Assembly (NCBI GenBank): GCA_919901555.1
Contig: CAKKPG010000203.1
Coordinates: 1 to 36,508 of the forward strand
Length of the DNA: 36,508 nt
Source: Nitrospiria bacterium
GTDB taxonomy: Bacteria > Nitrospirota > UBA9217
Direction: 5' to 3'
Shown: positions 5,765-28,224 of the stretch, piece after piece
Numbering within the stretch: position 1 is the first letter of the stretch
How the letters are laid out: every line of letters starts with the position of its first letter
The notes under the pieces: model-generated
What the model was told of the DNA's origin: nothing
Databases searched by the model: none
Seen by the model: the letters and a program-made list of their open reading frames with translations, nothing else
Translations under genes and position numbers: made by a program

Positions 5765-5847
5765 AGGACCCCCTCCTCTAATTTTTTTGCAGCGCGTACC
5801 ATCAACTGAAAAAGTGGATGAGAAAGCGCATGCATTCTCATAGCAAA

Positions 5848-5862
5848 GCAATTGCAGTGCCA
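5848..5862 (-). promoter_or_regulatory. Sigma-54 (-24/-12) promoter of the TauE/molybdoenzyme operon
   Basis: Read on the minus strand the sequence is TGGCAC-TGCAA-TTGC, an exact match to the TGGCAC-N5-TTGC sigma-54 consensus. Transcription would start near 5836, giving a leader of about 70 bases before ATG 5764. Two matching dyads lie upstream, as expected for an enhancer-dependent promoter. Confidence 0.9.
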
Positions 5863-5915
5863 TATTCATAACATATGGATTTTAATGGATTGCTGTGAAC
5901 AGCGGAGCTTTGAGT

Positions 5916-5931
5916 GTTCCCGAAGGGGAAC
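5916..5931. promoter_or_regulatory. Enhancer dyad 1 (GTTCCC-N4-GGGAAC)
   Basis: This is a perfect 6-bp-arm palindrome with the same flanks (TGTTCCC...GGGAACGCA) as the second dyad. It lies about 60 bases upstream of the -24 element. It is a candidate binding site for the adjacent NtrC-type regulator. Confidence 0.75.
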
Positions 5932-5959
5932 GCAGGGGAGGGGTGAAAAAAGGCAAAAT

Positions 5960-5975
5960 GTTCCCAAAAGGGAAC
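5960..5975. promoter_or_regulatory. Enhancer dyad 2 (GTTCCC-N4-GGGAAC)
   Basis: This second copy of the palindrome is centred 44 bp from the first, about four helical turns, so both sites face the same side of the DNA. That is typical of paired upstream activator sites for sigma-54 activators. It sits just past the stop codon of the regulator gene that probably recognises it. Confidence 0.75.
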
Positions 5976-5981
5976 GCAGGA

Positions 5982-7340: not shown

Positions 7341-8965
7341 GAGAGCGGCAGCTGCACGGTAAAGGTCGTGCCCTCCTCCGAGGTTTTCACCGTGATATCT
7401 CCTTTATGCTGTTCAATGAGCGCCTTGCTCACCGAGAGCCCCAGTCCGGTCCCCTCGCCGGTGTCCTTGGTGGTAAAGAACGGATCGAATATGCGGGTGA
7501 TCACCTCGCGGGGAATCCCCTTCCCGGTATCGGTAAAGGACACCCGGCACTTTGATTCGTCGCTCTCCGTCCTGATGGTAAGGACCCCGCCGCCCTCCAT
7601 GGCCTGGACGGCATTTATGATAAGATTGAGAAAAACCTGCTCGAGCTTGTTGGGGTCAACCATGAGTGCGGGAAGGTCCCCGGACAGCTGCTCAACGAGC
7701 TTGATCCCCTTCTTCAAAATCGTGTATTCCGAGAGTTTCAGCACGTTCCTGACAATCGTATTAATGGATGACCGGGACATGCTCAATGCCGAATTTTTTG
7801 AAAAATCGAGGAGCCGCTTCACAATGCTCTGGATCCTGTCGAATCCGGATTTGATGACCTCGATGTGCTGCCTCCTGGTGTCCTCGTCCATGTTCGTCTC
7901 GATCAAGTTATTGAAGCAGAGGCCGATCCCGCCCAGCGGATTGTTGATCTCATGGGCGACCCCGGCTGCCACCTGGCCGAGAGCGGAGAGCCTGTCGAGG
8001 CGGAATTTCTCCTGATTTGCCTCCTCAAGTTCCCTGAGATTGCTCTTCAGGTCGCCGACCATCTGATTAAAAACCTCGATCAGTTCCCCCACTTCGTCGC
8101 CGCAGGACTCGCGATAGACGATGCACTTCTTGCAGTCACCGATCTTTTCAGCGGCGCCGCCCTGCACGCAGCCGAAGCACCTGGTGCCCGATATCGTCCA
8201 GCACCGCTGTTTGCCGTAGGCCGGGCAGTCTTTCAGGTCGCAGCCCTGGACCTCCCAGCAGTTCTGCAGAGAGTCGTTCGGCACCGTCACATCCAGGTTC
8301 CCCGTCTGCACCAGCTCCATTTTATCTTTGAGTTTTTTCATGGGCGTCGTAAGCTGCTTCGCGAGGGCGACGGCGCCCCCTATTCCGATAAATATGACGA
8401 GCGCGGAGATGAAATAAACATACCGCTTGAGCTCCTTCATAGTATCCTCGACCACCGCCTCCGTACTCTCCCGTGAAAATCCGACCATGACCATGCCGAC
8501 AACTTCGTATCCTATTTTAACCGGGACAAGTATCTCTTTGACGCCGTCTTGGGAACTGTCGCCGATGTATGTTTCTCCCTTGGTGAGGACGCTCAGCGCC
8601 TGTTTCTGAAGCCGGGCAGGAAGCGTCTGTCCGAGAAACACCCGATTCGTATGCGCAACAATGCGTTTGTCCCGGTCAACGACCACCAATGCGTACATGA
8701 ATCCGGGCGTCTGTGCAATTGCTCTCACAAGTCCATCGAGCCTCAGGGGATCCATTAAGATGAGGGGCTCAACGGCATCCTTGGCCAGGTTTCGCACGAT
8801 CACGACGTGGTTCTTATCCATCTCCGATCTCAGGGCGCTCTTCTGGTGGCTGATAATGAGGCCGGTGACGATCACCATCATGACGGCGACCAGGGAAAAA
8901 ACCGCCACGGAAAATTTCTGGACCAGGCTCAGTTTCCTGAATATTTTCTTGAGATTTATGTTCAT
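7337..8965 (-). CDS. Membrane histidine kinase with cysteine-rich two-CW-type insert in the HAMP region
   Basis: This 542-residue sensor kinase has TM1 (about 17-39), a periplasmic domain of about 145 residues, TM2 (about 183-203), a HAMP-like segment, HisKA with phospho-acceptor H338 in VAHEINNP, and an HATPase domain (NLIINAVQAM, DTGKGIP, GTGLGLS). Between the two HAMP halves (about 207-231 and 288-312) sits an insert with nine cysteines (C236, 242, 247, 255, 263, 266, 278, 281, 288), including CW, CPAY and CW motifs. This matches the pattern annotated as the two-CW domain. Such a cluster could bind a metal or respond to redox state between membrane and catalytic domain; that function is inference. 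It lies 2 bases downstream of the PhnD-like lipoprotein gene, which suggests that protein supplies the ligand signal. Confidence 0.93.
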   Translation of the reverse strand: MNINLKKIFRKLSLVQKFSVAVFSLVAVMMVIVTGLIISHQKSALRSEMDKNHVVIVRNLAKDAVEPLILMDPLRLDGLVRAIAQTPGFMYALVVVDRDKRIVAHTNRVFLGQTLPARLQKQALSVLTKGETYIGDSSQDGVKEILVPVKIGYEVVGMVMVGFSRESTEAVVEDTMKELKRYVYFISALVIFIGIGGAVALAKQLTTPMKKLKDKMELVQTGNLDVTVPNDSLQNCWEVQGCDLKDCPAYGKQRCWTISGTRCFGCVQGGAAEKIGDCKKCIVYRESCGDEVGELIEVFNQMVGDLKSNLRELEEANQEKFRLDRLSALGQVAAGVAHEINNPLGGIGLCFNNLIETNMDEDTRRQHIEVIKSGFDRIQSIVKRLLDFSKNSALSMSRSSINTIVRNVLKLSEYTILKKGIKLVEQLSGDLPALMVDPNKLEQVFLNLIINAVQAMEGGGVLTIRTESDESKCRVSFTDTGKGIPREVITRIFDPFFTTKDTGEGTGLGLSVSKALIEQHKGDITVKTSEEGTTFTVQLPLS

Positions 8966-8967
8966 GT

Positions 8968-10629
8968 TCAGTATCGTCTGAGGGCCTCGAATTCAGCCTC
9001 ATCGGCCTCCCGGAAGCCCCTGATCCTGGCCGCCTTCAGTACGTCCCGGTCGCGAAGTTCCGTCAAAAGACGCGTGACCGCCTTGACGAGGGACGGATCG
9101 GTATTCCGGCACAAGGCAAAGGGCCAGTTCGGGAGCGGCTCCGTCCTCGCCAGTACCCGTATCCTTTTCATATCGACCGCGTCTTTCCATACCACCAGCG
9201 CGGATTCCCTCACAAAACCGGCATCCGCCTCTCCCCGGTAGACGCCCAGGATCACGTTCTCCTGTCTTTTGGCGTCGACAATATTCATGTCTTTTTCCAC
9301 ATCGATGCCGTTCCGCAAAAGAAATAATTTTTGCGAAAGATATCCGCCCGCCGATTTCGGCGAAGTGATAAAGACCTTTTTATTCTTCAATCCATTGATG
9401 TGCCTGATGCTGCTGTCGGCCCTCGTGATGATCACCCCCCTGAAGCTCTCCCCCCCTTCCATCCCGTCCTCGGAAGGGCTGTCCTCGCCGATGGTCGTTA
9501 CGAGCGGCCGCAGGTCCACCTCCCTGTCAATTAATGAAAAGATATAGGGGTTCTGATAGGAAAAATCCACCGCGCCCCTCTTCACCACATCCATAAAATC
9601 ATCAAAGTCCCTGGGGACGACGAGCTTGAATTCATATCCCGTCTTTTGAGACAGGTACCGCATCAACGGTTCATACCGCTTATAGAGCGTTATGGCTGAA
9701 TAGAGGGGAAGGACCGCGACCTTGATCGTCTTCGGACCATACTCGATATGGTCCCTCCCCGTAAGGTTCTTTATCATTACCCGGACCACATCGAAGTCCC
9801 TGTCCTCGGCGGCGACAAATCCTCCGATACGTTCATCAACGGCCGGGAGACTCCGCCCGTCGGATAACGATACGAGACCTTTGATGATGACTTCCCTTGT
9901 TGCCGGCAGGAGTCGGCGCGACGCGCAGAGAACGAACTGGGGTATCGCCTCGGAGGTCTTTATGATGACCAGTCCATCCTCGGTGTATTTTTTCGCCACA
10001 AACTCGCTGAGAGCCCCCACATCATGGTTGCCGATGAGGATGGAAAGGGCCACGCTGTCTTCCTGCTGGAGATGGTCCACGGAGGCAAAGTCCTTAATGC
10101 CGATGCCGACTTCATTCAGCATGGACAGGGGAATGAGATAGCCGAACGACGACTGCTGGTTGCCGAGGGCAAGCCGCTTCCCTTTCGCATCCACGACCTT
10201 CCCTATACCGCTGCCGCTCTTTGCGATCAACACGCTGCGGGACGTGGCGCCCTCTTTCGTGACGGTCCTGACAAGGGGGATAACGTTCTCTCTGTAGCGG
10301 GCCCGCACTTCACAATAGGTTGCGGGATCAAGACAGGCGATATGGACCTGACCGGTTCCCAGCTCCCGGATGGCCGCGTCATAGTCCTTGGCGATTTTGA
10401 TGTTTACGGGCCTCTTCAGGGTATTTTCAAGGTGGTACTTCAACGGGAGGAATCTTTCATACATCGAGCCGGCGCTTTCCACGGGAAGGATGGAGAGAAT
10501 AAGGGGGGGAACGGCCTGCCGGGGAGAGGCCTTCGTTTCAGCGCTGTTCGTGATGCTATTCGTATTGCCCTGATCTGAACATGCAGCGACGGTTGCCAGC
10601 ACGGTGAGTAAAATTGCTGTTCTTTTCAT
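8968..10629 (-). CDS. Tandem PhnD-like periplasmic substrate-binding lipoprotein, likely sensor partner
   Basis: This 553-residue protein carries a lipoprotein signal peptide (VAAC lipobox, C17) and two consecutive PhnD/phosphonate-binding-type domains, roughly 38-295 and 300-540. Each begins with the characteristic beta strand plus YxRFxPLxxxLE pattern (MYERFLPLKYHLE and LYKRYEPLMRYLS). No ABC permease or ATPase is nearby; instead a histidine kinase and its regulator follow in the same operon. Known kinases such as TtrS use a PhnD-like domain to detect tetrathionate, so this looks like the same idea with the sensor domain as a separate, duplicated lipoprotein. The ligand is unknown; a sulfur oxyanion is favoured by the target operon. 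A duplicated two-domain arrangement could bind two ligands or be asymmetric. Confidence 0.9.
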   Translation of the reverse strand: MKRTAILLTVLATVAACSDQGNTNSITNSAETKASPRQAVPPLILSILPVESAGSMYERFLPLKYHLENTLKRPVNIKIAKDYDAAIRELGTGQVHIACLDPATYCEVRARYRENVIPLVRTVTKEGATSRSVLIAKSGSGIGKVVDAKGKRLALGNQQSSFGYLIPLSMLNEVGIGIKDFASVDHLQQEDSVALSILIGNHDVGALSEFVAKKYTEDGLVIIKTSEAIPQFVLCASRRLLPATREVIIKGLVSLSDGRSLPAVDERIGGFVAAEDRDFDVVRVMIKNLTGRDHIEYGPKTIKVAVLPLYSAITLYKRYEPLMRYLSQKTGYEFKLVVPRDFDDFMDVVKRGAVDFSYQNPYIFSLIDREVDLRPLVTTIGEDSPSEDGMEGGESFRGVIITRADSSIRHINGLKNKKVFITSPKSAGGYLSQKLFLLRNGIDVEKDMNIVDAKRQENVILGVYRGEADAGFVRESALVVWKDAVDMKRIRVLARTEPLPNWPFALCRNTDPSLVKAVTRLLTELRDRDVLKAARIRGFREADEAEFEALRRY

Positions 10630-10780
10630 AACACATCCATAGTTCAGGCCGCCCCCGGCGCCGGAGATATCCGGCCTCCTGACGGCAGGGGGACTCTTCC
10701 TGGTTCCGGAACCGGCCCATGATGTTCACCAATGCATCCCAAGGACCCGCGATCGAACGGGATTTTGCCCGTGTGCGGCC

Positions 10781-10809
10781 ATTATACACCGGCTCCGGGC
10801 AATACAAAA
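10781..10809 (-). promoter_or_regulatory. Candidate sigma-70 promoter for the PhnD-kinase-regulator operon
   Basis: On the minus strand TTTTGT (10804-10809), a 17-bp spacer and TATAAT (10781-10786) are found. The -10 is perfect and the -35 is weak. The leader to ATG 10629 would be about 145 bases and contains GC-rich dyads, for example GGTTCCGGAACC near 10700. Confidence 0.45.
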
Positions 10810-10923
10810 GCGGTTTTTCTCCGGCAAAAAAGGCGGACGGGCAAAGGAGCAGCGCGATCCGCGCCTGTCCACCAGGGAAAAGCGATACACTGCACGATCA
10901 TGCCGGTCGAACGGCCCCTACTC

Positions 10924-10952
10924 TTGCATTCCGCTATTCAATACGGTAGAAT
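10924..10952 (+). promoter_or_regulatory. Candidate sigma-70 promoter for the methyltransferase gene
   Basis: TTGCAT (10924-10929), a 17-bp spacer and TAGAAT (10947-10952) are followed by the composite palindrome at 10965-11087 and then the GTG start at 11107. The palindrome would therefore lie in the 5' leader. Confidence 0.5.
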
Positions 10953-10964
10953 TTAACAATTCGG

Positions 10965-11087
10965 GTAACTACTCAGGTCTGCCGCAAAAAGACGCAGAAG
11001 TCACAAAAGGTTGTAGCGTCGGGGTTTATCCCCGACGATTAGTCGCCCTCAGTAAATGAGGGCGCTACAGAGGACCTGGGTAGTTAC
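10965..11087. repeat. Nested palindromic repeat element (GTAACTACTCAGG family, copy 1)
   Basis: Outer arms GTAACTACTCAGGTC (10965-10979) and GACCTGGGTAGTTAC (11073-11087) pair with one mismatch. Inside is a second inverted pair GTAGCG/CGCTAC (11013-11018 and 11063-11068), which encloses two more hairpins: TCGGGG/CCCCGA (11019-11035) and GCCCTC/GAGGGC (11045-11063). A second copy of the outer arms is at 24208-24255, and a partial arm is at 28231-28239. It fills most of the 477-base gene-free stretch 10630-11106. Confidence 0.8.
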
Positions 11088-11106
11088 AAAATTCGGAGGA
11101 AAAACC

Positions 11107-11730
11107 GTGGACCCTTATTCGAAAGATCAGCTCCTGTCATTTTACAACATGCACCTGAAGCAGTTCGGCGACCGGCCCGAGGCGCTCCGCTGGACGCCCA
11201 AGGGCCAGCTCATGCGCTATCACGCGCTCCTCGAAATCGCGCCGGACCTGAATGACCGGAAGGTCCTGGACTTCGGCTGCGGCACGGGCGACTTTTACCG
11301 CTTCCTGAGGCGGAGGGGGATCGAGGTGCAGTATACCGGTGTGGACGTCAACGAGAACTTCATTAACCTGGCGCGGAAAAAATACCCCGAATGCACCTTC
11401 AAGGTCATGGACCTCGATGAGGACTCTTTGAATGAGTTCTACGATTACATCTTCATCTGCGGCGTGTTCAACCTGCTCGTCCCGGGGGTCGCCGATGACC
11501 TGAAGAACGCCCTCGTCAACCTCTTCAAATATTGCAACAGGGGGCTCGCCCTGAACGCCCTTTCCTCTCATACTCCGATCAAGGACATGGAGCTCAACTA
11601 TACTTCACCGGAGGAAATGGTCAAATTCGCGCTGGAGAGCCTCTCGCCCTCCGTTGCCGTCCGCCACGACCACATCCCCTACGACTTCACGCTGTTCGTC
11701 TACACGTCGTATAACGAAATCGACCTGTAA
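11107..11730 (+). CDS. Class I SAM-dependent methyltransferase
   Basis: This 207-residue protein has the Rossmann-type SAM-binding motif I VLDFGCGTG (about residues 53-61), followed by the acidic-end strand TGVDVNENFI and a DYIFICGVFN segment at motif IV. I chose the GTG start at 11107 because GGAGGA (11095-11100) sits 6 bases upstream. The ATG at 11056 that would extend the frame lies inside the palindromic repeat and is not preceded by a ribosome site. The substrate cannot be read from the sequence; small-molecule or sugar methyltransferases share this layout. It stands alone on the plus strand, followed 12 bases later by the remnant of a dehydrogenase gene. Confidence 0.85.
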   Translation: MDPYSKDQLLSFYNMHLKQFGDRPEALRWTPKGQLMRYHALLEIAPDLNDRKVLDFGCGTGDFYRFLRRRGIEVQYTGVDVNENFINLARKKYPECTFKVMDLDEDSLNEFYDYIFICGVFNLLVPGVADDLKNALVNLFKYCNRGLALNALSSHTPIKDMELNYTSPEEMVKFALESLSPSVAVRHDHIPYDFTLFVYTSYNEIDL

Positions 11731-11742
11731 AAGGAGCGGTCC

Positions 11743-11862
11743 ATGACCACGAAAAAGACAGCGCTCGTTACGGGCGCGAACAAAGGCCTGCGGCTCGCGA
11801 CCCTCGGCCCCGACGGCCCGACGGGGAAGTTCTTTCATGGAGATGAAGAACTGCCGTGGTAA
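11743..11862 (+). pseudogene. Internally deleted short-chain dehydrogenase/reductase remnant (39 codons)
   Basis: The frame opens with ATG after AAGGAGCGGTCC and reads TTKKTALVTGANKGL, the N-terminal TGxxxG cofactor-binding motif of classical SDR enzymes. It then jumps directly to RLATLGPDGPTGKFFHGDEELPW and a stop, which resembles the C-terminus of the same kind of SDR. About 200 residues in the middle are missing without a frameshift. It cannot be an enzyme; it is most simply a deletion relic of an intact gene that once followed the methyltransferase. Confidence 0.75.
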
Positions 11863-11922
11863 GTGGTGCGAGTACGTTGATTTGATGAGACGAATACACT
11901 AAGAAGTTTCCCGACGATCTGA

Positions 11923-12552
11923 TCAGCGGCGGAGTTGCATGGCGCGCACCGGGCCGGCGTGATCCCCTCTTTTATTGCAGCCCGGTTTAATCGGCTCTCC
12001 AAAGCGCTGCCGCAGGGTCTGCACGAATGCCGCGTCCGCTCTCGGAGATGCGATCTCCAGCGGCGAGTACCCGCGCTTCCAGGCAAGGTAGAATGTGGTG
12101 ATAAGGAGGATGCCGGTGATAACGAAGTTTGGCCAGGCGTTGAGCTCCCACTGGCCTGAGCAGGAGAATTCACGGGGAGAAAAGGGGAGAAAATACGGAA
12201 TCACCCACCGGTCGTCTCCGGGACCGCGGGCGCCGACGAAGTCACCAAGGAGGTGAAGATGGAAGCTCACAAAAACGAGCGCTGCAACAGCCCGGTTTCG
12301 AGCGCTGAGCAGGAAGGCGACCAGCGTTACGAACAGGCCGAACAAAAGGTTGTGGCCGAGGACATGGTGGTAATTGCTCCACCAGAGCAGGGGGTTGCCG
12401 CCGTTCCGCGTGAGGGCCTCGGCGACGATGCCGAAGCCGTCAACATCGGGGATCAAGCCGGCTGCCGTCACCATGATCCGTTCTTTCCGTCCGAACCGCC
12501 TGCTGCCGTTGGCAACGAGCCATCCGGCGAGTAAATGAGTGACCGGACTCAT
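11923..12552 (-). CDS. Membrane-bound metal-dependent hydrolase, YdjM/DUF457 family
   Basis: This 209-residue integral membrane protein has the motifs of the YdjM/DUF457 family: an N-terminal histidine (MSPVTHLLAGW), the acidic GLIPDVDG, HHVLGHNL and HLHLLGDF, which together form the presumed metal site at the membrane face. Several hydrophobic helices are visible. I start it at ATG 12552, after a GAAGGACA site, because the longer frame has a non-homologous arginine-rich leader that overlaps the preceding gene. The start lies 11 bases after the stop of a 64-residue membrane protein on the same strand, so the two are probably co-transcribed. The substrate is unknown for the family. Confidence 0.8.
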   Translation of the reverse strand: MSPVTHLLAGWLVANGSRRFGRKERIMVTAAGLIPDVDGFGIVAEALTRNGGNPLLWWSNYHHVLGHNLLFGLFVTLVAFLLSARNRAVAALVFVSFHLHLLGDFVGARGPGDDRWVIPYFLPFSPREFSCSGQWELNAWPNFVITGILLITTFYLAWKRGYSPLEIASPRADAAFVQTLRQRFGEPIKPGCNKRGDHAGPVRAMQLRR

Positions 12553-12562
12553 GATATGTCCT

Positions 12563-12757
12563 TCAAGCCTTCGGGCCCTTGCTCTTCCTGGCCAGCGCCC
12601 CGCCCTTGGACAGCAGTACCGCGAATACGGCAATGCCGACGGCGATGCCGATAAAATACGCGATCCCGCTTTCAATCACAAAAAAACCCCGCAAGCCTGC
12701 CAGCAAAACAACCACTCCCGCGATTTGCATCAGCAATCCCTTGTTTCTCTCAGACAT
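12563..12757 (-). CDS. Small two-helix membrane protein
   Basis: This 64-residue protein begins MSERNKGLLMQ, has two hydrophobic segments (about residues 9-23 and 28-48) and ends in a basic tail (LARKSKGPKA). ATG 12757 is preceded by AAAGGAGG at ideal spacing; an in-frame start 21 bases earlier overlaps that ribosome site and is rejected. I do not recognise a family. It is the first gene of a two-gene unit with the YdjM-like hydrolase. Confidence 0.7.
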   Translation of the reverse strand: MSERNKGLLMQIAGVVVLLAGLRGFFVIESGIAYFIGIAVGIAVFAVLLSKGGALARKSKGPKA

Positions 12758-12811
12758 TGTAATCCTCCTTTCGGACAATAATATCGCCGTTAACAGGCCA
12801 CTATGAGGTAA

Positions 12812-12817
12812 AGTATA
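12812..12817 (-). promoter_or_regulatory. Candidate extended -10 promoter for the small membrane protein unit
   Basis: On the minus strand the sequence is TATGCTATACT, an extended -10 (TGC-TATACT), in an AT-rich stretch unlike the surroundings. No convincing -35 is seen. It lies about 55 bases upstream of ATG 12757. Confidence 0.35.
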
Positions 12818-13003
12818 GCATACTATTTGTAATATTTTTGGTCTTCCCCAAGGAAAAAAGTGCGCATTGCTGCCGGGCGATTCACCTTGCTGAGATTGAT
12901 CGGAACTTACCGTCGAGTTTCGTTTGATATGTGCGGCAGGCGCTAACGATGTGAGGCGCGGAGTGCGGCTATGGGAGAATCGTTCCCTTATGAAAAAAAA
13001 ACA

Positions 13004-13160
13004 TTATTCCTCAGCAGAATCCTCATCCGTCCCAAAGGCGCCTTTTATCCCCAGTTCCTTGATCTTCTTCCTGAGCGTATTGCGGTTGATGCCGAGCAGG
13101 TTCGCGGCGCGCACCTCGCCGCCCTCGGTCTTTCCGAGCATGAGCGTGATGAGGTGCATC
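13004..13160 (-). pseudogene. Orphan C-terminal (Fis domain) fragment of an NtrC-type regulator
   Basis: The minus strand encodes about 52 residues ending ...GAFGTDEDSAEE-stop, with VRAANLLGINRNTLRKKIK in the middle. This is nearly the same as the end of the intact NtrC gene at 24328-25788, which has the same helix-turn-helix and also ends in an acidic tail. The homology starts abruptly and is preceded in frame by a TAA codon, so there is no receiver, AAA+ domain or start codon. It is a truncated duplicate or the relic of a second, lost NtrC gene beside the nif cluster. Confidence 0.75.
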
Positions 13161-13188
13161 TCGAGAGTTGTTGACGTGGCTTATGAAG

Positions 13189-13353
13189 CTAATGCACGCC
13201 CTTCGATAGATACAGGCCGTACAGCAAAGAACCCCAGGCGACCAGCGTCACCGTGGTCGCAGACTTCCCCTTGTCAACATCGTTCGCTCTGCCGATCAGG
13301 AAGGACAGGAAAAACGTCACGATCGCAAAAAACAGCATGCCCGCTACTATCAT
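13189..13353 (-). CDS. Small membrane protein (54 residues) downstream of hesA
   Basis: The frame begins MIVAGMLFFAIVTFF, has two hydrophobic stretches (about residues 2-21 and 33-50) separated by a polar GRANDVDKGK loop, and ends SKGVH. ATG 13353 has a strong AAAGGAGG site 8 bases upstream. The stop of the hesA-like gene is 50 bases upstream on the same strand, so it is probably the last gene of the nif transcript. I know no family match, and short length means it is easily missed. Confidence 0.65.
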   Translation of the reverse strand: MIVAGMLFFAIVTFFLSFLIGRANDVDKGKSATTVTLVAWGSLLYGLYLSKGVH

Positions 13354-13402
13354 GATCTTCGCCTCCTTTTCCCTGTTCCGGATATCAGGGACGCTCTTTC
13401 TC

Positions 13403-14149
13403 TCAGGTCCCGCATACCTCGCACAGTTCGTTCCGGGGAATCCTGACCTTCCGGAATTCCATGTCCAGCGTGTTGAACACCAGCATCTCCGAGAGCAGCG
13501 GCTTGCCGTACCCGGCGAGCATTTTGACGGCCTCCAGGGCCATTATGCACCCGAGCAGGCCCGATACGGCGCCGAGCACCGGAAATCCGAGCTCCTCCCA
13601 TGACGGGTCGTCCTCGGGATACACGCAGTGGATGCAGGATGTAACCTGAGGGATGACATTAAAGATATAACCTTCCATCCCGTTCATGGCCGCCTCAACC
13701 ATGGGAATGCCCTTCTCGATACAGGCCTTGCTCAGGATCCTGCGCTCGGAGAAATTCGGCCGTGCAGACAGGGCGATCTGCGAGGTGAGAAGCAGCTCCT
13801 GTACATTGCTGCCCGTGATCCGCTCGTCGAGGGCCTCGATCTCCACGTCGGGATTGATCTGGCGGATCGTCTTCTTTGCCTGCAGGACCCTGCTTGTCCC
13901 GATCGCGTCGTCCCGCATCAGTACCTGCCGGTTCATATTGGAAACGGTAAGCTTCCCCTGATGCACAAGGACCAGCCTGCCGATGCCGGCCACGGCAAGG
14001 TAAAGGGCCGCCGTGCCGCCCAGACCGCCGACGCCGGCCACCAGCGCCGTGGTATTCTTCAGCCGTTGCTGATGCTCTGCGGTAAATCCCTCAAGCATCA
14101 TCTGGCGGCGGTACCGCTCCCGGTCGTTCTGCGTAAGTTGTTTTCCCAT
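13403..14149 (-). CDS. hesA: HesA/MoeB/ThiF-family protein of the nif cluster
   Basis: This 248-residue E1-like protein has the ATP-binding GVGGLGG motif, the Mg/adenylate segment SNMNRQVLM and a structural zinc site from two CxxC pairs (CIHC and the C-terminal CEVC). Members of this family adenylate the C-terminus of ubiquitin-like sulfur carriers; HesA proteins accompany nif genes in many diazotrophs and are thought to help cofactor or cluster assembly. ATG 14149 lies four bases after the nifB stop, in line with tight coupling. A longer frame from 14182 would overlap nifB and is less likely. No small sulfur-carrier gene is visible nearby. Confidence 0.85.
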   Translation of the reverse strand: MGKQLTQNDRERYRRQMMLEGFTAEHQQRLKNTTALVAGVGGLGGTAALYLAVAGIGRLVLVHQGKLTVSNMNRQVLMRDDAIGTSRVLQAKKTIRQINPDVEIEALDERITGSNVQELLLTSQIALSARPNFSERRILSKACIEKGIPMVEAAMNGMEGYIFNVIPQVTSCIHCVYPEDDPSWEELGFPVLGAVSGLLGCIMALEAVKMLAGYGKPLLSEMLVFNTLDMEFRKVRIPRNELCEVCGT

Positions 14150-14153
14150 ATCA

Positions 14154-15041
14154 TCACACCGACCCGTCGTAATCCTCGCCAATGCGCGACATCAGCACTT
14201 CGAGTTCCATGTCCTTGTCCTCGCCCAGGATCCCGCAGGCATCGGCACGGCACTGCCTGCAATGGGTCATCTGCTTGATAAAGGGCCGGCACTGCTCGCG
14301 CAGCCTGCCGATCTCCGCATGCGAAGGCCTTGTCATGTGAGCGAACTCGGCCTGGGGAATAAGCGGAAGAATGTTCATGATGTCCACGCCGAGCTTTCCG
14401 GCCCGTTCCGCGATCAGCGGGATCTCGTGATCGTTCACCCCGGGGATGAACACGGTATTGACCTTGGTGATAAGGCCCGCGTCGATCGCATTCTCCAGTC
14501 CCCTCCACTGGTTTGCCAGGAGCAGTTCCCCCGCCGCTCTCCCCTCATATCGCCGCCCCTGGTAAATGACCCAGGAATAGATTTTTTCCGCGGTCTCGGG
14601 AGAAACAGCATTGATCGTGACGGTCAGGCTCTTCACCCCTGATGCGATAAGCTGCTCCAGCCTGTCCGGCAAAAGGAGGCCGTTCGTGGACACGCAGAGC
14701 GTGAGATCGGGGTACTCCCCGTATATCCGCCGGAGCACGACGTACGTCGGGGCATTGACGAGAGGATCTCCGGGGCCGGCGATACCTACGACGCTCAACC
14801 TGTCGCTCCGTTCTATGAGCACCCTGGTCCGATCAACGGCCTCATCCGGGGTCAGGATCCGGCTCGTGATCCCCGGCCGGGACTCATTGGCGCAATCGAA
14901 TTTTCTGAAGCAGTAGCGGCACTGGATATTGCAGGCAGGCGCGACCGGCAGATGGGCCCTTCCGAAGAGGTGGTGCGCCTCTTCCGAGAAACAGGGATGC
15001 ACCTTGATAAGTTCTTTGCCTATATGTCCGGGATTGCGCAT
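14154..15041 (-). CDS. nifB: Nitrogenase cofactor biosynthesis protein NifB (radical SAM, no NifX domain)
   Basis: This 295-residue radical SAM enzyme builds NifB-co, the carbide-centred Fe-S precursor of the nitrogenase active-site cofactor. The SAM cluster motif CNIQCRYC (C37, C41, C44) is followed by the NifB-typical FRKFDCANESRPG. The second-cluster residues are in HPCFSEEAHH near the N-terminus, and HCRQCRADACG near the C-terminus is also typical. It is the minimal archaeal/anaerobe form, ending after the radical SAM core without the NifX domain of proteobacterial NifB. A separate NifX protein is encoded upstream. GGAGGAGAGC precedes ATG 15041. Confidence 0.96.
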   Translation of the reverse strand: MRNPGHIGKELIKVHPCFSEEAHHLFGRAHLPVAPACNIQCRYCFRKFDCANESRPGITSRILTPDEAVDRTRVLIERSDRLSVVGIAGPGDPLVNAPTYVVLRRIYGEYPDLTLCVSTNGLLLPDRLEQLIASGVKSLTVTINAVSPETAEKIYSWVIYQGRRYEGRAAGELLLANQWRGLENAIDAGLITKVNTVFIPGVNDHEIPLIAERAGKLGVDIMNILPLIPQAEFAHMTRPSHAEIGRLREQCRPFIKQMTHCRQCRADACGILGEDKDMELEVLMSRIGEDYDGSV

Positions 15042-15189
15042 GCTCTCCTCCTTTTGACGGCCTACCGACCTGTACAGTCTCTATAGCAAGATCATTGCCG
15101 CGGGCCGAACGTTGATTATCAAGGAGTTGAATTGCGGAGACGGAAACAACTGCACGGACCAGAGGCAATTGCATGTTTTCGAGGCAGTA

Positions 15190-15254
15190 CAATCCGCATT
15201 CCGCATTCCGCTTGTACCCGCGTTATCGCAAGAGCAGGGTGAAATCCGCATCAT
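15190..15254. repeat. ATTCCGC-type repeat copy between fdx and nifB
   Basis: Short CCGCATTCCGCATTCCGC units flank a core around TTATCGCAAGAGCAGGGTG and end in AATCCGCA. A closely similar block, with core CTTTCGCAAGAGCCGGGGC between the same flanking units, lies inside the NifN part of nifEN at 17807-17875. The remaining bases of the fdx-nifB spacer (15042-15189) show no gene. Confidence 0.65.
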
Positions 15255-15529
15255 ACGGTCACATGCACATGGCACTTCTTGGTGCAGGTGCGCGCGCATG
15301 CTTCGCAGCCGATACAGTTCTCAGGCCGGGCGATAGACATGACCTTGTTGCCCATATCGTCGCCGTATTCGTCCTCGCCTTCAAAAGGTTTTTCGATGAG
15401 CTCCAGCACGTCGAAACCGCAGACCTTGTAGCAGCGGCCGCAGCCGATGCACTTGTCGATCTCGATCGTTTCGATGAATTTCGGCGTCCAGGGCCTGCCG
15501 CCCCGGGTTGTTCCGGTGATTGTCGGCAT
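15251..15529 (-). CDS. nif-cluster 2[4Fe-4S] ferredoxin (FdxB/ferredoxin III-like)
   Basis: This 92-residue ferredoxin has two cluster motifs: C27-x2-C30-x2-C33-x3-C37 and C72-x2-C75-x2-C78 with C82 and C86. An acidic loop of about 35 residues between them (EGEDEYGDDMG) is typical of the nif-specific ferredoxin III. It would donate electrons to NifB or to nitrogenase reductase. ATG 15529 is preceded by AAGGAG; the longer frame starting at 15589 runs through a GAAACGGGG repeat and is not a real leader. It lies between nifI2 and nifB. Confidence 0.92.
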   Translation of the reverse strand: MPTITGTTRGGRPWTPKFIETIEIDKCIGCGRCYKVCGFDVLELIEKPFEGEDEYGDDMGNKVMSIARPENCIGCEACARTCTKKCHVHVTV

Positions 15530-15551
15530 GATGACTCCTTTTGTGGATATT

Positions 15552-15632
15552 GATGAAACGGGGAAACGGGGAAACGGAGATAAAGACAATCCTCTTCTCC
15601 GTTTCTCCCCCTCTCCGATTCACCGTTTCATA
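15552..15632. repeat. Inverted GAAACGG repeat between nifI2 and fdx
   Basis: ATGAAACGGGGAAACGGGG at the left and CTCTCCGATTCACCGTTTCAT at the right can fold back on each other, with further CCGTTTCTCC arms inside. It separates two co-oriented nif cistrons and is not followed by a T-run. Confidence 0.55.
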
Positions 15633-15639
15633 ACTTAAC

Positions 15640-16056
15640 CTATGCAATGGCCTCGCCATTGCGCTCGCCGGTCCGGACGCGCAACGCGCCTTCAATGGGA
15701 GAGACGAAGATCTTTCCGTCGCCGGCCTTGCCGGTCCGGTTCACCGTGATGAGAGACTTGACGATCGTTGTCACCACGTCGTCGGGCACGACGATCGTGA
15801 GCAGCCGCTTCGGCACAAAGAGCGCGACCTTCGGCAGCGTGTGGTCCAGCGCATAGGTGGACGGCGTGGGCTTGAGCTTCACCGCCGTGCAGTAGCTGTC
15901 CGGCATTTCCGCGTCCATCTCCGCGCATAGGGCGCCTTTCTGCTTACCCCGACCCTCGACGCTCTGGATCGTGAGCGACGAATAACCGAGCTCGTCAAGC
16001 GCCTTTTTCGTTTCCGGGAGCTTGTCCCGGCGTATAATGGCGGTGATCTCTTTCAT
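15640..16056 (-). CDS. nifI2: Nitrogen regulatory PII-type protein NifI2
   Basis: This 138-residue PII-family protein carries the expanded T-loop region (residues about 42-75, KGALCAEMDAEMPDSYCTAV...) that marks NifI2 rather than GlnB/GlnK. The ATP/2-oxoglutarate-binding GDGKIFVSP and RVRTGE motifs are present. With NifI1 it forms a complex that binds the MoFe protein and stops nitrogenase turnover when ammonium arrives and 2-oxoglutarate falls. TGAGGAGG precedes ATG 16056. It follows nifI1 and is placed after nifX, not in the usual slot between nifH and nifD. Confidence 0.93.
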   Translation of the reverse strand: MKEITAIIRRDKLPETKKALDELGYSSLTIQSVEGRGKQKGALCAEMDAEMPDSYCTAVKLKPTPSTYALDHTLPKVALFVPKRLLTIVVPDDVVTTIVKSLITVNRTGKAGDGKIFVSPIEGALRVRTGERNGEAIA

Positions 16057-16075
16057 GTGGTAGTACCTCCTCAGA

Positions 16076-16138
16076 GCGCAGGCTAAAGCCTGCGGCTACC
16101 TGTTTTATTCCGCAATCCGAAATCTGAAATCTACAATG
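16076..16138. repeat. Hairpin and CCGCAATCCG repeat between nifI1 and nifI2
   Basis: CGCAGGC-TAAA-GCCTGCG forms a tight hairpin at about 16078-16094. It is followed by CCGCAATCCGAAATCTGAAA, which is an arm of the same repeat family that recurs at 18305-18423 and 27072-27106. No promoter signal was recognised. Confidence 0.55.
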
Positions 16139-16141
16139 CCA

Positions 16142-16459
16142 CTACAGCCCCGCTTCACCGGTCCTTACCGTATATGCAGCTTCCACGGGGCTGACAAAGA
16201 TCTTGCCGTCGCCGATGAACCCGGTCCGGGCCTTTTCATGGATCACCTTGACGACCGTGTCCATGTCCTTGTCGTCGACAACCGTCATGATAAGCACCTT
16301 CGGCAGTTCATCATAGTGCACCGGTCCGACGGTCAGCCCCTTTTGCTTACCCCTTCCGAACACCGGAACCTTCGTGAGCGATGGAAAGCCCGCGCCCTCA
16401 AGCGCCAGCACTACCTCCTGCTCCTTTTCCGGCCGAATAAACGCCCTGATCATCTTCAT
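16142..16459 (-). CDS. nifI1: Nitrogen regulatory PII-type protein NifI1
   Basis: This 105-residue protein begins MKMIRAFIRPEK and has the NifI1-type T-loop sequence GRGKQKGLTVGPVHYDELPK, followed by GDGKIFVSPV and TVRTGEAG at the nucleotide site. The GlnB-type Tyr-51 uridylylation site is absent, as expected for NifI1. It acts with NifI2 in ammonium switch-off of nitrogenase. ACAGGAGGAAA lies before ATG 16459. It lies between nifX and nifI2. Confidence 0.93.
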   Translation of the reverse strand: MKMIRAFIRPEKEQEVVLALEGAGFPSLTKVPVFGRGKQKGLTVGPVHYDELPKVLIMTVVDDKDMDTVVKVIHEKARTGFIGDGKIFVSPVEAAYTVRTGEAGL

Positions 16460-16482
16460 GGTTTATTTCCTCCTGTTTTTTA

Positions 16483-16557
16483 TCTGAACTCCGAACTTTG
16501 CCTGCACCCAGCGCTTATGAGTGCAACGCGCGAATGCAGGGTGAACTCTGAACTATG
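16483..16557. repeat. GAACTC-type inverted repeat between nifX and nifI1
   Basis: CTGAACTCCGAACTTTGCCTGC and its partner GCAGGGTGAACTCTGAAC bracket a short CAGCGCTTATGAGTGCAACGCGCG core. The GAACTC/GAACCC unit also forms the in-frame linker at 34783-34815. Confidence 0.55.
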
Positions 16558-16948
16558 TTTTGTGCATCGCCTTCCTGAGCCACGGCGGTGGCGACGTTTT
16601 GATGGTCTCAGCAAGCTGTTTCAGCGCCCTCTCGATCGCCACCGGCTCCTTTACCTTCATGGGCATGATGCCTTTTTTGACCAGCCGCGCTGCCGAAGGG
16701 CCGCCGATCTCCGCAAGATAGATGAGCTTGCAGTCCGCAAGACGATCAACCTTGTTCTGGACCGCGCTGTCATGCAGCGGGCCCGTGTCTTTGGTGTCCA
16801 TGACCGCCCTGTCCATGCCGTCGGCGAACTTCCGTATTTCAATGAAACAAAATCCGCCTTCGATCATTTCGTAGATTGCGAACGAGCCCGCCCTGCCGAA
16901 ATGCTCGTTGACGTTCTTTTCGTCGGTCGTTGCAAACGCGACTTTCAT
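16553..16948 (-). CDS. nifX: NifX/NafY-family FeMo-cofactor biosynthesis protein
   Basis: This 131-residue protein of the dinitrogenase iron-molybdenum cofactor binding family starts MKVAFATTD and has the family's HFGRAGSFAIYE and GGPSAARLVKKGIMP segments. NifX carries NifB-co or the VK cluster between NifB and NifEN. ATG 16948 is preceded by TTGGAGG; the longer frame to 17023 has no ribosome site. It directly follows nifEN, which fits a role as shuttle to that scaffold, and supplies the domain that the short NifB lacks. Confidence 0.9.
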   Translation of the reverse strand: MKVAFATTDEKNVNEHFGRAGSFAIYEMIEGGFCFIEIRKFADGMDRAVMDTKDTGPLHDSAVQNKVDRLADCKLIYLAEIGGPSAARLVKKGIMPMKVKEPVAIERALKQLAETIKTSPPPWLRKAMHKT

Positions 16949-17030
16949 GATAAACCTCCAATGGCCTTCGAGCTCGCAGGCTGTCATGCGTTCAAGCCGA
17001 CAGGCGAGACGCAGCATCTTCACGGCTGCC

Positions 17031-19745
17031 TCAATGCCTGCCCATCAAAATACTGCCGACCTCATTGATAAGTGTCGTCGTCCCCCGGTAGCCGATGGTG
17101 ACCTTCGACGGATACCCCAACGTTTTATATACCGGAAACCCCATCTCATACAGCGGGACCCCAAGCCGTTTTGCCGTGCTCGACCCATGGGAGTTAGTGA
17201 TAAGCAGATCGAAGTCTCCTGCGATGGAGAAAAGATCGTTGATCTTCACGTCCCGCGCCCGGATATGGTCGGCTGCCGCTGAAAGCGTCGGAATGACCGC
17301 CAGCTCTACGGTTGCGCCCATTTCATCAAGCCACTTCGAGGTCTGGACGGCACAGTCAGGCTCCAGGGCAAGACAGACCTTTTTCCCGCCGAAGAAAAAG
17401 TGCGCGTCCCGCATGACATCCTGCAGGACCCTGCGTTGCCGTTCATATTTCGCGGGTACGACTGTTCCGCTCACGTCCGAGACGGTTTGCATCAAGCGGT
17501 CTGAATCTTCGAGCCCGGCGATACTATCGAGAACGCGGTACTCGATGCCGAACTTTTTATGCAGGAGCTTTGCGGCAGGCTCCATGCTCGTACCCAGTGC
17601 GATGGTGAAGGCTGCATCACCCAGCCTGTTCAGTTCTTCCAGGCTTGTCCCTCCTGAGGCAAGCGGAGAAAAAGTCTGCCCGCTCCCATCAAGTGCGGAC
17701 AGGTCTGGGAGGATGACCGCCCTCAGGCCGATGGCTTCGACGATCTCCCTGATCTCGGTGAAATCCGCCGGAGTGAGCTGCGATCCGGCAAGAATGTTGA
17801 CCTGCTTTAATTCCGCATTCCGCAATCCGCCTGTCCCGGTGCTTTCGCAAGAGCCGGGGCAATCCGCAATTCCTATGATCGCCTCCACTGCCCGTGCATA
17901 CCCGGTCTCCAGCCCGCCGTCAAAGTCAGGCGTGGGCACATGGATAATCATGGTCTTTGACGTTTTACTCCTGACTACTGACTCCTGACCCCTGATTACT
18001 GCTTTAATATCGTCCCCCTTGACCTCGGACAATCCCGAGGTGAGGATCCCTATAAGAGCAGGGTTGTTCTTCTCAATGAACCCGTCAATGGCCTGCGTCA
18101 GCTTCTCCTCGCTCCCCATGACCACGTCTTCCACAAAAAGCTTGCTCGAAGCCAGGGCAACAGGCTCTCGGAAGTGTTTGGTCAGCAGCACTTTGCCGAG
18201 AAAGGTACAGCCCTGTGCGCCATGGATGATCGGCAGCGCGCGGTCGATCCCCTGGAGCGCCATGGCCGCTCCGATCGACGGAGAGTGCTTGAGAGGATTT
18301 ATAATAATTTCGGATTTCGGATTGGCAATTGCGGATTGCCGACCCTGCATTTCCGGTTTTAAATCCGCATGGAGCCTGCCCTCGAATGCCTTTATCGGGG
18401 GCAATCCGCAATCCGCAATCATGCCGCTTCTCTTGTAGAAGCGAAGACTGTTGCTGATCTGCTCGGCCAGGTTCACGAGCCCCGCATATCCCGCATACGC
18501 CGTATGCCGTTCCTGGTTCACATCCACAAAGGGGTAGCCTTCCTTGATCGCGAGGTACTGGTTCCTGCCCCCGGCAATGAGCATGTCCGCGTTCCGCTCC
18601 TTCAGGAGCCGGAGCAGGTTCTTCGGCGTCACATCCTCCACCAGCGGGGCGTCCGGTCCGAGGATCGCTTTCATTTTTTCCTCATCCTCGACCGTGCTCT
18701 TTTTGGTGCCCACCGCCACGACCTCGATGCCGAGGTCGCGCAGCGCGGAGATAAAGGACCAGCTCTTGACCCCGCCGGTGTACAGCACGGCTTTTTTGCC
18801 GCGCAGATGCCTATACGGCTTGAGTGCTTCTCTGAGCTTCTTCTCTTCACTTTTGATCAACGCTTCTACTGATCTTGATAGATCGGAATCTTCTGACTGC
18901 CGCCCCCTGGCCACCGGCCCCTGGAGTTTTTCCGCAATGGCCCGCAAGGCCTTCGCTATCTCGGTGCTGCCGAAGAAGGATACTTCCACAAAGGGGATGC
19001 CGTATTTCCGTTCCATTTCCCTGGCCACATTGATCAGGGCACGGCCGCAGACGACCACATTCAATTTTGCCTGGTGCGCCCAGGTGATCTGTTCGAACGT
19101 CGCGTCGCCTGTGATCCTTGAAAGGACCCGGATCCCCGACCTGGTGAGCAGCGGTTCCACGAACCAGAGGTCGCCGGCGATGTTGTACTCGCCGATCAGA
19201 TTGATGTCGGTATGCGTCATGACCGGCGTCTCGCCCGTTCCGATCACGTGCTCCAGCAGGACCTCGCCGGCGATCCGGTTCCCCAGGTTCTTGGGCCCCA
19301 CGAACCCCGGAGCGTTCACCGGAATCACGCGGATGTCCAGTTCGTCTTCGGCCCGTTTGCATACGGAGTCAATGTCCTCTCCGGTCATGCCGTTCACGCA
19401 CGTGGCGTACACAAAGATCGCCTTCGGTTTGACCGCCTCGGATGTCCGCCTGATGGCGTCCAGCAGCTTCTCTTCCGACCCGTAGATGATATCGATCTCG
19501 CTCATGTCGGTGGTGAACCCCATGGTATGAAGTTCGCCCTTGGATGAAAGAGCTCCCCGGCCTTCCCAGGTGTTGCCGCAGCAGGCAATGGGGCCGTGCA
19601 CAAGATGCGCCGCATCGGCAATGGGCTGGAGCACGATCATGGCCCCGTCGAACGCGCAGGACTCTCCCCCGCGGGAGCGGCAGACCTTGTGCTTGTCGTC
19701 GGTGGAACAGCCCTCTGCCGTTAATTTATCGAGCGTGCTTACCAT
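17031..19745 (-). CDS. nifEN: Fused nitrogenase cofactor scaffold NifE-NifN
   Basis: This 904-residue single-chain protein joins NifE (about 1-440) to NifN (about 481-904); it is the scaffold where NifB-co matures into FeMo-co. NifE cluster cysteines are visible (C30, C55, C116) along with the VLYTGGVKSWS motif. NifN contributes HGAQGC (C513) and the QVNILAGSQLTP motif. I start at ATG 19745 because the frame further upstream reads through a CAGTAGACTGTAG repeat and is unlike NifE. The linker (about 443-480) and two NifN segments (about 585-598 and 626-647) are encoded by DNA of the intergenic repeat families; they fall at variable loop positions, so the protein may tolerate them. There are no stops or frameshifts. 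The fusion is rarer than separate nifE and nifN. Confidence 0.93.
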   Translation of the reverse strand: MVSTLDKLTAEGCSTDDKHKVCRSRGGESCAFDGAMIVLQPIADAAHLVHGPIACCGNTWEGRGALSSKGELHTMGFTTDMSEIDIIYGSEEKLLDAIRRTSEAVKPKAIFVYATCVNGMTGEDIDSVCKRAEDELDIRVIPVNAPGFVGPKNLGNRIAGEVLLEHVIGTGETPVMTHTDINLIGEYNIAGDLWFVEPLLTRSGIRVLSRITGDATFEQITWAHQAKLNVVVCGRALINVAREMERKYGIPFVEVSFFGSTEIAKALRAIAEKLQGPVARGRQSEDSDLSRSVEALIKSEEKKLREALKPYRHLRGKKAVLYTGGVKSWSFISALRDLGIEVVAVGTKKSTVEDEEKMKAILGPDAPLVEDVTPKNLLRLLKERNADMLIAGGRNQYLAIKEGYPFVDVNQERHTAYAGYAGLVNLAEQISNSLRFYKRSGMIADCGLPPIKAFEGRLHADLKPEMQGRQSAIANPKSEIIINPLKHSPSIGAAMALQGIDRALPIIHGAQGCTFLGKVLLTKHFREPVALASSKLFVEDVVMGSEEKLTQAIDGFIEKNNPALIGILTSGLSEVKGDDIKAVIRGQESVVRSKTSKTMIIHVPTPDFDGGLETGYARAVEAIIGIADCPGSCESTGTGGLRNAELKQVNILAGSQLTPADFTEIREIVEAIGLRAVILPDLSALDGSGQTFSPLASGGTSLEELNRLGDAAFTIALGTSMEPAAKLLHKKFGIEYRVLDSIAGLEDSDRLMQTVSDVSGTVVPAKYERQRRVLQDVMRDAHFFFGGKKVCLALEPDCAVQTSKWLDEMGATVELAVIPTLSAAADHIRARDVKINDLFSIAGDFDLLITNSHGSSTAKRLGVPLYEMGFPVYKTLGYPSKVTIGYRGTTTLINEVGSILMGRH
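17807..17875. repeat. In-frame repeat inside nifN, block 3
   Basis: CCGCATTCCGCAATCCGCC, a core CTTTCGCAAGAGCCGGGGC and a closing AATCCGCAATTCC encode NifEN residues about 626-647, before the conserved QVNILAGS strand. Close copy of the intergenic block at 15190-15254. Confidence 0.7.
17966..18001. repeat. In-frame repeat inside nifN, block 2
   Basis: A tandem run of CTCCTGACTACTGACTCCTG-type units encodes residues about 585-597 (RGQESVVRSK). The unit is a simple direct repeat of roughly TGACTACTGACTCC, unlike ordinary NifN coding sequence. Confidence 0.65.
18305..18423. repeat. In-frame inverted repeat forming the NifE-NifN linker, block 1
   Basis: Arms AATTTCGGATTTCGGATTGG plus AATTGCGGATTGCC at the left and GGCAATCCGCAATCCGCAAT at the right enclose about 60 bases. 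Together they encode the linker (about residues 443-480). The right-hand 22 bases (18402-18423) are identical to those ending at the start codon of the EamA gene (27333-27354). Confidence 0.75.
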
Positions 19746-19756
19746 AAAAACCCCGT

Positions 19757-19866
19757 CTTTAGTAGACAGTAGACTGTAGACTGTAGACTGTAACCAGGGT
19801 AAAACCAGAGCTACCGTCTGAATATGTTTATTTTCCCTGTCTACTGTATGCTGTCTACTGCCTACT
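19757..19866. repeat. CAGTAGACTGTAG inverted repeat between nifK and nifEN
   Basis: Tandem AGTAGACAGTAGACTGTAG units at 19759-19791 face CTGTCTACTGTATGCTGTC units at 19840-19866 across about 50 bases. It fills the entire spacer upstream of nifE and explains the false upstream extension of the nifE frame. Confidence 0.75.
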
Positions 19867-27071: not shown

Positions 27072-27351
27072 CCGATTGCGGATTGTAGATTTCGGATCGC
27101 GGATTAAAATCCTAACCCGGACAAACCGGAACCAAAAATAAATTCATATTTACCACGGATGCACACTGATAACCACGGAAAAGAATTCAAGATTCAGTCT
27201 TTTGGTTTTTTTCCATCCGTGCAACTCCGTGTTAATCCGTGGTAAAATGGTTCTTAGATTTTCTTGCCATGTTGAGAAAAATTTGACTCGTAACTGACTA
27301 AAACCATTCGACGTAAAAACGAATTTTACTTTCAATCCGCAATCCGCAATC
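27072..27351. repeat. Repeat-filled spacer between ntrB and the EamA gene
   Basis: This stretch has no gene. In order it holds CGATTGCGGATTGTAGATTTC units, a CTAACCCGGACAAACCGGAACC border (27111-27131), a long inverted repeat with arms TTACCACGGATGCACACTGA and AACTCCGTGTTAATCCGTGG (27148-27247), and two CAATCCGC units abutting the ATG of the next gene. The border is shared with 1012-1031 and 22938-22958. Confidence 0.75.
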
Positions 27352-28224
27352 ATGATGAGCCTCCGCCTCATACTCGTCTCCATTATCTGGGGGGTAAACT
27401 TTGCGTTCGTAAAATTTGCCCTCTCAGACTTTCTTCCCCTGAGCTTCACCGTGGTGCGGTTCTCGCTGGGCGCGCTGTTTCTCATGGGCGTCATGCTCGT
27501 CACCAGGGAACCCTTCGGCATCGCGCGGAAAGACCGCGCCCCCCTTATCCGGCTCGGCCTCATCGGGATAACGCTGTACAACATCTTTTTCATGGAGGGC
27601 CTCAAGTATACGACAGCGTCACACTCGGCCCTCCTCATCTCCTTGTCACCCCTGTTCGCGGCCCTCATCCAGGCCGCATCGGGAAAAGAGCGGATCACCG
27701 GCGCCGTCGGCATGGGGCTTCTCCTCTCGTCCATCGGGGTGTTCCTCATCATCCGCAGCCACGCCAACGGCCTGGATTTTTCATCAGGCGGGCTCTTCGG
27801 AGACGTCCTCACGCTCTGCGCCTCGGTGTTCTGGGCCCTCTATACCCTGAAAGCGAAGCCGCTCCTCGAAGCCTATTCTCCCGTCAAGGTCACCGCCTAC
27901 ACCATGGCTACGGGGTCGCTGTTGCTCCTGCCCGTGGGAATGTACGAGCTCATCCATCAAACCTGGAGCACGATATCGGCCCCGACCTGGGCGGCCCTCG
28001 GCTTCGCGGCCTTTATTTCCGGAGGGCTCGCCTTCAGCCTCTGGTACCAGGGCGTAAAGAGGATCGGTGTTACCCGGACCATCGTCTACCATTATCTCGT
28101 GCCCTTCGTTGCCGTGGTCTTTGCCGCGATCTTTCTGGACGAGCACATATCTTCCGTGCAGGTCCTGGGCGGCCTTTCGATTCTGACCGGGGTCTCCCTC
28201 GTGCAGAGAAGCAGGACCGTCTAA
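27352..28224 (+). CDS. EamA-family (DMT superfamily) transporter
   Basis: This 290-residue protein has ten hydrophobic segments in two EamA repeats (about 5-135 and 148-285), with the family's SIIWGVNFAFVKFAL start and FWALYTLKAKPLL second-repeat start. Members export or import metabolites such as amino acids; the substrate cannot be read here. The start ATGATG directly abuts a CAATCCGC repeat and no ribosome site is visible, so it is weakly translated or its leader is unusual. It is transcribed divergently from ntrB and faces amtB. Confidence 0.88.
   Translation: MMSLRLILVSIIWGVNFAFVKFALSDFLPLSFTVVRFSLGALFLMGVMLVTREPFGIARKDRAPLIRLGLIGITLYNIFFMEGLKYTTASHSALLISLSPLFAALIQAASGKERITGAVGMGLLLSSIGVFLIIRSHANGLDFSSGGLFGDVLTLCASVFWALYTLKAKPLLEAYSPVKVTAYTMATGSLLLLPVGMYELIHQTWSTISAPTWAALGFAAFISGGLAFSLWYQGVKRIGVTRTIVYHYLVPFVAVVFAAIFLDEHISSVQVLGGLSILTGVSLVQRSRTV

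Follow-up and report, generated by a model that had tools for sequence, protein, structure and literature searches.

The linker that joins the NifE and NifN halves of a fused nifEN gene is very probably a composite palindromic repeat, which arose in a gene that was already fused and at a place where extra residues are tolerated. The gene lies in a stretch of DNA of 36,508 nt (the window) from a 3.45-Mb Nitrospirota assembly of 220 contigs (the host genome, G000), whose relatives are named Nitrospirae or Nitrospirota. The arrays of the window were found to be one case of a genome-wide population of repeats with a period of 7, which went beyond the initial annotation of this DNA. More tentatively, Nitrospirota of the family of the host genome might possess an active DNA process with a 7-base step, which repeatedly refills tolerated sites in biosynthetic proteins with lineage-specific heptamer palindromes.

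The nifEN gene occupies positions 17031-19745 on the minus strand and encodes 904 amino acids from an ATG at 19745, a start chosen by codon-use scoring. The longest open reading frame reaches a GTG at 19874, 5' of this ATG, through a heptamer-rich leader in which the period-7 array scan located a TGTAGAC array (19761-19792, minus strand). Equivalog domains for NifE (TIGR01283, 599 bits, cut-off 505) and NifN (TIGR01285, 446 bits, cut-off 327) were both present in the single frame 17031-19745, which runs without a stop from NifE across the linker into NifN. The match to the fused-protein model NF011047 (PRK14477) spanned nearly the entire protein and scored 1025.2 bits, below the cut-off of 1229. 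The natural single-chain GmNifEN of Geobacter metallireducens (PDB 9i0g) was matched by sequence with an E-value of 2e-225 and gave the lowest E-value by fold (8e-73 for 9i0g_A), and the NifEN fold was recovered in each half with Foldseek (also 9onk_A, rmsd 2.5; 9ian_C, rmsd 3.3).

The linker element (18305-18423, minus strand) is a palindrome of heptamer arrays coding for residues about 442-481, which were modelled as coil, and its GCGGATT/AATCCGC arrays flank a 26-nt hairpin element. In gene orientation, the left arm consists of three GATTGCG units (18401-18420, minus strand, by array scan) and the right arm of the inverted heptamers CAATCCGCAATTGCCAATCCGAAATCCGAAAT (18307-18340, minus strand). 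On the plus strand, ATTTCGG units at 18307-18323 and an array at 18327-18340 stand in the opposite orientation to the GCAATCC units at 18401-18420. The centre of the linker, which the initial annotation had not set apart, is a separate dispersed hairpin, CCCCGATAAAGGCATTCGAGGGCAGG (18375-18400, minus strand; stem CCCCCGA/TCGAGGG), with copies in the host genome and in others. As coding-strand RNA, the linker was predicted to form a single long hairpin (-45.2 kcal/mol, z -3.0; 1 of 200 shuffles equally good), in which the outer part of the right arm pairs with the left arm.

The linker had been described as built of CGGATT/AATCCG-type arms shared with spacers of the same window, and this description was accurate, coordinates included. 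The 22-nt sequence CAATCCGCAATCCGCAATCATG at 18402-18423 has an exact copy at 27333-27354 (expected number 0.01, with up to three mismatches allowed). With one mismatch, AATCCGNAATCCG was found at nine sites in the window compared with 0.42 expected, including the three spacers originally named as well as 15191 and 17817, and AATCCGCAATCCGC occurred 19 times genome-wide, compared with zero for the reversed control. The second-best match of the linker in the genome spans just 57 nt. Alignment of the linkers revealed no conserved peptide among the relatives. A linker peptide conserved on unrelated DNA, the pattern that would have spoken against a repeat origin, was accordingly not seen among them.

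Two more in-frame arrays, absent from the initial annotation, were found in the NifN half. At NifN site 1, the array scan located a TCAGGAG array (17967-17995, minus strand), and the homologous site is filled in relatives; at NifN site 2 (17806-17875, minus strand), GCGGATT/GCGGAAT heptamers flank a GC-rich hairpin (about 17830-17859), the in-frame array itself spanning 17810-17872. The site 2 element is an 83% match to a spacer copy at 15193-15239 (repeat family D13), part of an intergenic heptamer array with hairpin at 15190-15239 (plus strand). In NifN, there is no folding of the site 1 array (z -1.0), and site 2 folds no better than shuffled sequences (z -0.1). Intergenic heptamers at 16103-16137 (plus strand) are an inverted 83% match of 27075-27109 (I1); the latter belong to the heptamers at 27072-27109 (minus strand), a AATCCGNAATCCG-type match in the repeat comparison, and the exact copy at 27333-27354 (plus strand) is likewise intergenic and repeats the end of the linker arm. 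The period-7 scan also detected an in-frame AACTCAG array (34783-34813, plus strand) in the ORF at 33758-35797, which codes for the stretch between a nucleotidyltransferase-like and a kinase-like half (named by eye from the translation). The spacer at 15554-15622 carries inverted arrays of an 8-base unit (GAAACGGG / TTCTCCGT), a period-8 relative of the heptamer palindromes. No Rfam family was matched in the window, the elements included.

Arrays were counted in 660 kb of host genome stretches. Exact lag-7 runs of 11 or more numbered 57, compared with 0 in shuffled sequence, and other short periods gave 5-11 runs each, about 5 of which probably come from runs of N, since this background was constant across periods. 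Tandem 7-base units, and no other period, were thus enriched above chance, as in heptanucleotide repeats. When mismatches were allowed, 131 arrays in 45 unit classes were obtained, the intergenic ones often being inverted pairs spaced by a few to about 130 bases. Thirty-four of these arrays (26%) lay within genes predicted by codon use, compared with a coding share of 80% of the sequence, and they were crowded into 18 genes where 32 were expected; tolerance alone may not fully account for this clustering. Arrays at most 5 kb apart shared units more than permuted ones (0.28 compared with 0.185, P 0.004). GCAAAAT, the commonest heptamer class, was intergenic in 19 of 19 cases in the host genome sample L061-L100, though several of its frames look open.

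A cobalamin operon on contig C20 (L080; 4.8-19.6 kb), whose proteins were named by eye from translations, held 14 of the 34 coding arrays. This contig carries three cobalamin riboswitches, the sole Rfam matches. Many of the ORFs of the operon (4852-19594) have in-frame heptamer arrays and/or the hairpin CCCCGATA, some with several per gene. Four sensor kinases of the host genome, on contigs C19 (L079, L093, L094) and C52 (L191), have different units, either heptamer or hairpin, at one common loop of their ATPase domain.

The central hairpin CCCCGATAAAGGCATTCGAGGGCAGG has 14 copies in the host genome, with one hit for the reversed-pattern control, and was detected in 11 of 148 genomes of the phylum, namely the host genome and 10 other Nitrospirota. 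About 10 of the 14 copies lie within ORFs, gene status being judged by an open frame and a recognisable protein, and they are read in several frames or antisense, which argues for an origin at the DNA level. The hairpin is translated as PPIKAFEGRLHA in NifEN, as PDRVIRGQA in a cobalamin-operon ORF and as SSPDNVIRGQA in a sensor kinase, and it stands antisense, in frame, in a HisH-like ORF (L194, contig C61). The same composite of heptamers, hairpin and inverted heptamers, built of GGGTCAA units, was found in a malonyltransferase-like ORF of genome G015. The initial annotation had proposed a count of repeat copies in the genome and in genes; this was obtained genome-wide for AATCCGCAATCCGC and CCCCGATAAAGGCATTCGAGGGCAGG and, for the arrays, within the 660 kb.

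Fused NifENs of the host genome and of further Nitrospirota were compared with the split NifE/NifN pairs of eight others; nearly all the sequences are from metagenome assemblies. In a quick tree with a midpoint root, the fused members formed one clade of 21 Nitrospirota sequences. This clade includes L060 (GWC2_42_7), which appears split merely through an N gap, and excludes L042, a second type of fused NifEN from genome G003 that groups with the split genes and was left out of the conclusions on the fused clade. L042 has a GC-rich palindrome in its linker; G003 is a MAG of the same family, 74% complete and 5% contaminated, and L042 may be contamination. In L060, the linker consists of unrelated repeat-like sequence (peptide HCEAQSAEAIS...ASPSARNDK) and NifE has an extra insert, NSPFSPLILRGD, so that other elements use the same protein.

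The lag-7 scan detected 36 arrays in 21 fused ORFs (L042 included, L060 not) and none in the 16 split ORFs, and other periods that are not codon multiples gave 0-2 arrays in the same ORFs. Two of the 36 lay upstream of the start codon of nifEN in the host genome. The remaining 34, from 14 genomes, were confined to four homologous sites, namely one loop of NifE, the linker and two places in NifN, which together make up about 15% of the NifEN protein; arrays that share a common descent do not count as separate events. The frame was open in each array-bearing fused NifEN ORF that was examined. These in-frame arrays at shared sites support the second proposal of the initial annotation, that a repeat was inserted, or grew, in frame. 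Six early-branching fused members had no heptamer array in the scan, and their linkers are short. As the arrays are nested within the fused clade, with its six early branches array-free, the sequence comparison suggests that the fusion most likely predates the repeats. The nearest NifENs are about 75% identical, and no two genomes were found that are similar enough to reveal an exact empty site or a duplication.

The placement of the arrays in loops is in keeping with an AlphaFold2 model of NifEN, built from a shallow alignment of 12 sequences (mean pLDDT 70). Residues 277-286, 439-485 (the linker region) and 629-644 (NifN site 2), which are three of the four array sites, were modelled as coil at pLDDT below 50; this lends support but no more, because some conserved segments also have pLDDT below 50. 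NifN site 1 was modelled with moderate confidence as a helix end plus loop, with no clear disordered loop, which counts against the explanation by tolerated loops. Gaps were present at or near the array sites in alignments of the NifEN of the host genome with the PDB chains.

The units at the shared sites differed between genomes. At NifN site 1, TCAGGAG was found in the host genome, GGGTCAA in G007, G011 and G024, AAGGGGC in G015, CAGGAAG in G002 and AAGATTC in G026, while the linkers carried GATTGCG, AGTGCGG, AAGGGGC, AGGAGTC or GTCAGCA. The sister genomes G007 and G011 had TAGGAAT- and GCGGAAT-type units at NifN site 2, and at the NifE site GGAGTCA was present in G011 and nothing in G007. 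Further palindromes at NifEN sites were GC-rich hairpins, in L023, L034, L039 and L042. Units were scored as alike when 6 or 7 of 7 positions agreed in any phase or on either strand; this was the case for 40% of pairs from different sites of one genome, 15% of pairs from the same site in different families and 9% where site and family both differed, compared with 1.7% for random units. In CbiD, four sites behave in this way. Family f3 has GGGTCAA units there and family f1 has units of GCGGANT or AGTTCNN; no arrays were found at those sites in CbiD of distant relatives.

These observations might be explained by arrays with a 7-base step that are seeded throughout the genome. Seeding and turnover would probably involve slippage during replication, or template switching within hairpins; a step of 7 bases has been suggested for heptanucleotide repeats (Mrazek et al. 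2007, cited by PMC4679880 and PMC4692102). Local copying would contribute, since neighbouring arrays are alike, and short hairpins and palindromes would be copied into heptamer arrays by some route. Purifying selection would then remove arrays that break the frame or fall in folded parts, so that the survivors collect in linkers and loops. A period of 7 is not a codon multiple and therefore cannot be created by selection on the protein. Beyond spacing, the linker peptide is unlikely to have a function of its own.

In the initial annotation, it was suggested that nifE and nifN were fused by read-through of a repeat-bearing spacer; a stop codon would have been lost in such an event. The same units are indeed present in spacers of this window, but the fused form is common to the entire clade, the short linkers of its early branches are array-free, the split relatives lack arrays in either gene and the linker units vary by genome, which makes this origin of the fusion very improbable. 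A role for the inserts in the protein or mRNA, such as spacing of NifN or translational pausing at a hairpin, would fit the strong hairpin predicted for the linker mRNA and the recurrence of the same four sites in many genomes. It is nevertheless improbable, as no peptide, frame, unit or structure is conserved at these sites, the two NifN arrays fold no better than shuffles and close relatives differ at the NifE site. Still less credible, and barely to be entertained, is phase variation, in which one unit more or less would put NifN out of frame and cut it off: arithmetically a single 7-base unit would do so, but the arrays are short and imperfect, the array-bearing NifEN ORFs examined are open and the same arrays are abundant in biosynthetic genes, where a switch would hardly be expected.

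Transposition is a stronger candidate, although on balance unlikely. The repeats would then be mobile, with a transposase as their mover, one example being the IS200/REP-associated tyrosine transposase (Y1_Tnp), as for REPs. The 26-nt hairpin, with a nearly constant core at many unrelated sites in 11 genomes, would be accounted for in this way, and Y1_Tnp genes are present in the host genome (three) and in most relatives. Against this, the heptamer arrays vary in length and lack defined ends, Y1_Tnp occurs in 108 of 148 genomes, even where GCGGANT arrays are absent or rare, and G006 has four Y1_Tnp genes but one array match. Y1_Tnp was also considered as the mover and was rejected: present almost everywhere, it is not diagnostic.

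The preferred reading, a repeat that arose within the fused gene, would make NifEN a clear case, across many genomes, of a DNA repeat process that writes new peptide into conserved enzymes, repeatedly at the same positions. The non-codon period marks the origin of the inserts, and insertion, unit turnover and selection can be traced site by site. This bears on the open question of why heptanucleotide repeats dominate bacterial microsatellites. Caution is also advisable with loop inserts and linker peptides in proteins of these genomes, which may be repeat-derived rather than functional modules. If the broader process exists, whole operons (nif, cobalamin) would contain repeat-derived peptides with a turnover like that of satellite DNA. 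Bacterial proteins would then evolve in length by a route so far undescribed, which Geobacter and cyanobacteria might share.

NifEN fusion itself is not new, because natural fusions are known from G. metallireducens and Anabaena variabilis, with function shown in A. vinelandii (PMC10865832; PDB 9i0g, 9i0h). According to that account these are single-chain NifE-NifN maturases, as in the Nitrospirota gene, and no repeat-coded linker is reported in the available part of PMC10865832. PMC13031127 concerns an artificial NifEN-B fusion, and a NifEN fusion was not found in the accessible part of PMC4284476.

A resemblance to Rickettsia palindromic elements (RPE; Ogata et al.), proposed in the initial annotation, was apt as an analogy. 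As described in parts of PMC10969869 and PMC3733652, RPE are likewise palindromic DNA, about 100-150 bp long, that sits in spacers and, in frame, in metabolic genes unrelated to one another, and in-frame insertions in unrelated genes were found here in NifEN, CbiD, other cobalamin-operon ORFs, HisH and a sensor kinase. The identification as RPE did not hold, as there is neither a conserved full-length element (the best second match covering 57 nt) nor a conserved peptide, the elements being read in several frames. The Nitrospirota elements are mosaics, with arms of heptamer arrays of changing sequence, and the same protein sites are refilled with different units. Going by these descriptions of RPE, the linker elements work like RPE but are none, since sequence, mosaic build and host differ.

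In the sections of Aklujkar et al. 2009 (PMC2700814) on G. metallireducens repeats, tandem 7-base units (GGACCGG x4, MTYCTGA x5) are described from intergenic DNA as well as from inside genes, and a single gene may hold several; some are drawn as looped-back strands. Those units have other sequences and are read as regulatory or IHF/HU sites, and the sections contain no comparison of one coding site across species. The GGGAATC / GGGGA(C/T)T heptamers of Xanthomonas and Nostoc (PMC4692102) and the TAACTGA repeats of Beggiatoaceae (PMC4679880) also form short period-7 arrays across the genome, with orthologous spacers that vary in repeat length and sequence. They differ in being mostly intergenic, with one unit family per study, and in the G-quadruplex or translational roles proposed for them. 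Among the open-access papers searched, none was found to report that different heptamers refill the same coding sites from species to species. Judged by sequence type, the Nitrospirota arrays are closest to the G. metallireducens heptanucleotides, the Xanthomonas/Nostoc GGGAATC repeats and the TAACTGA repeats.
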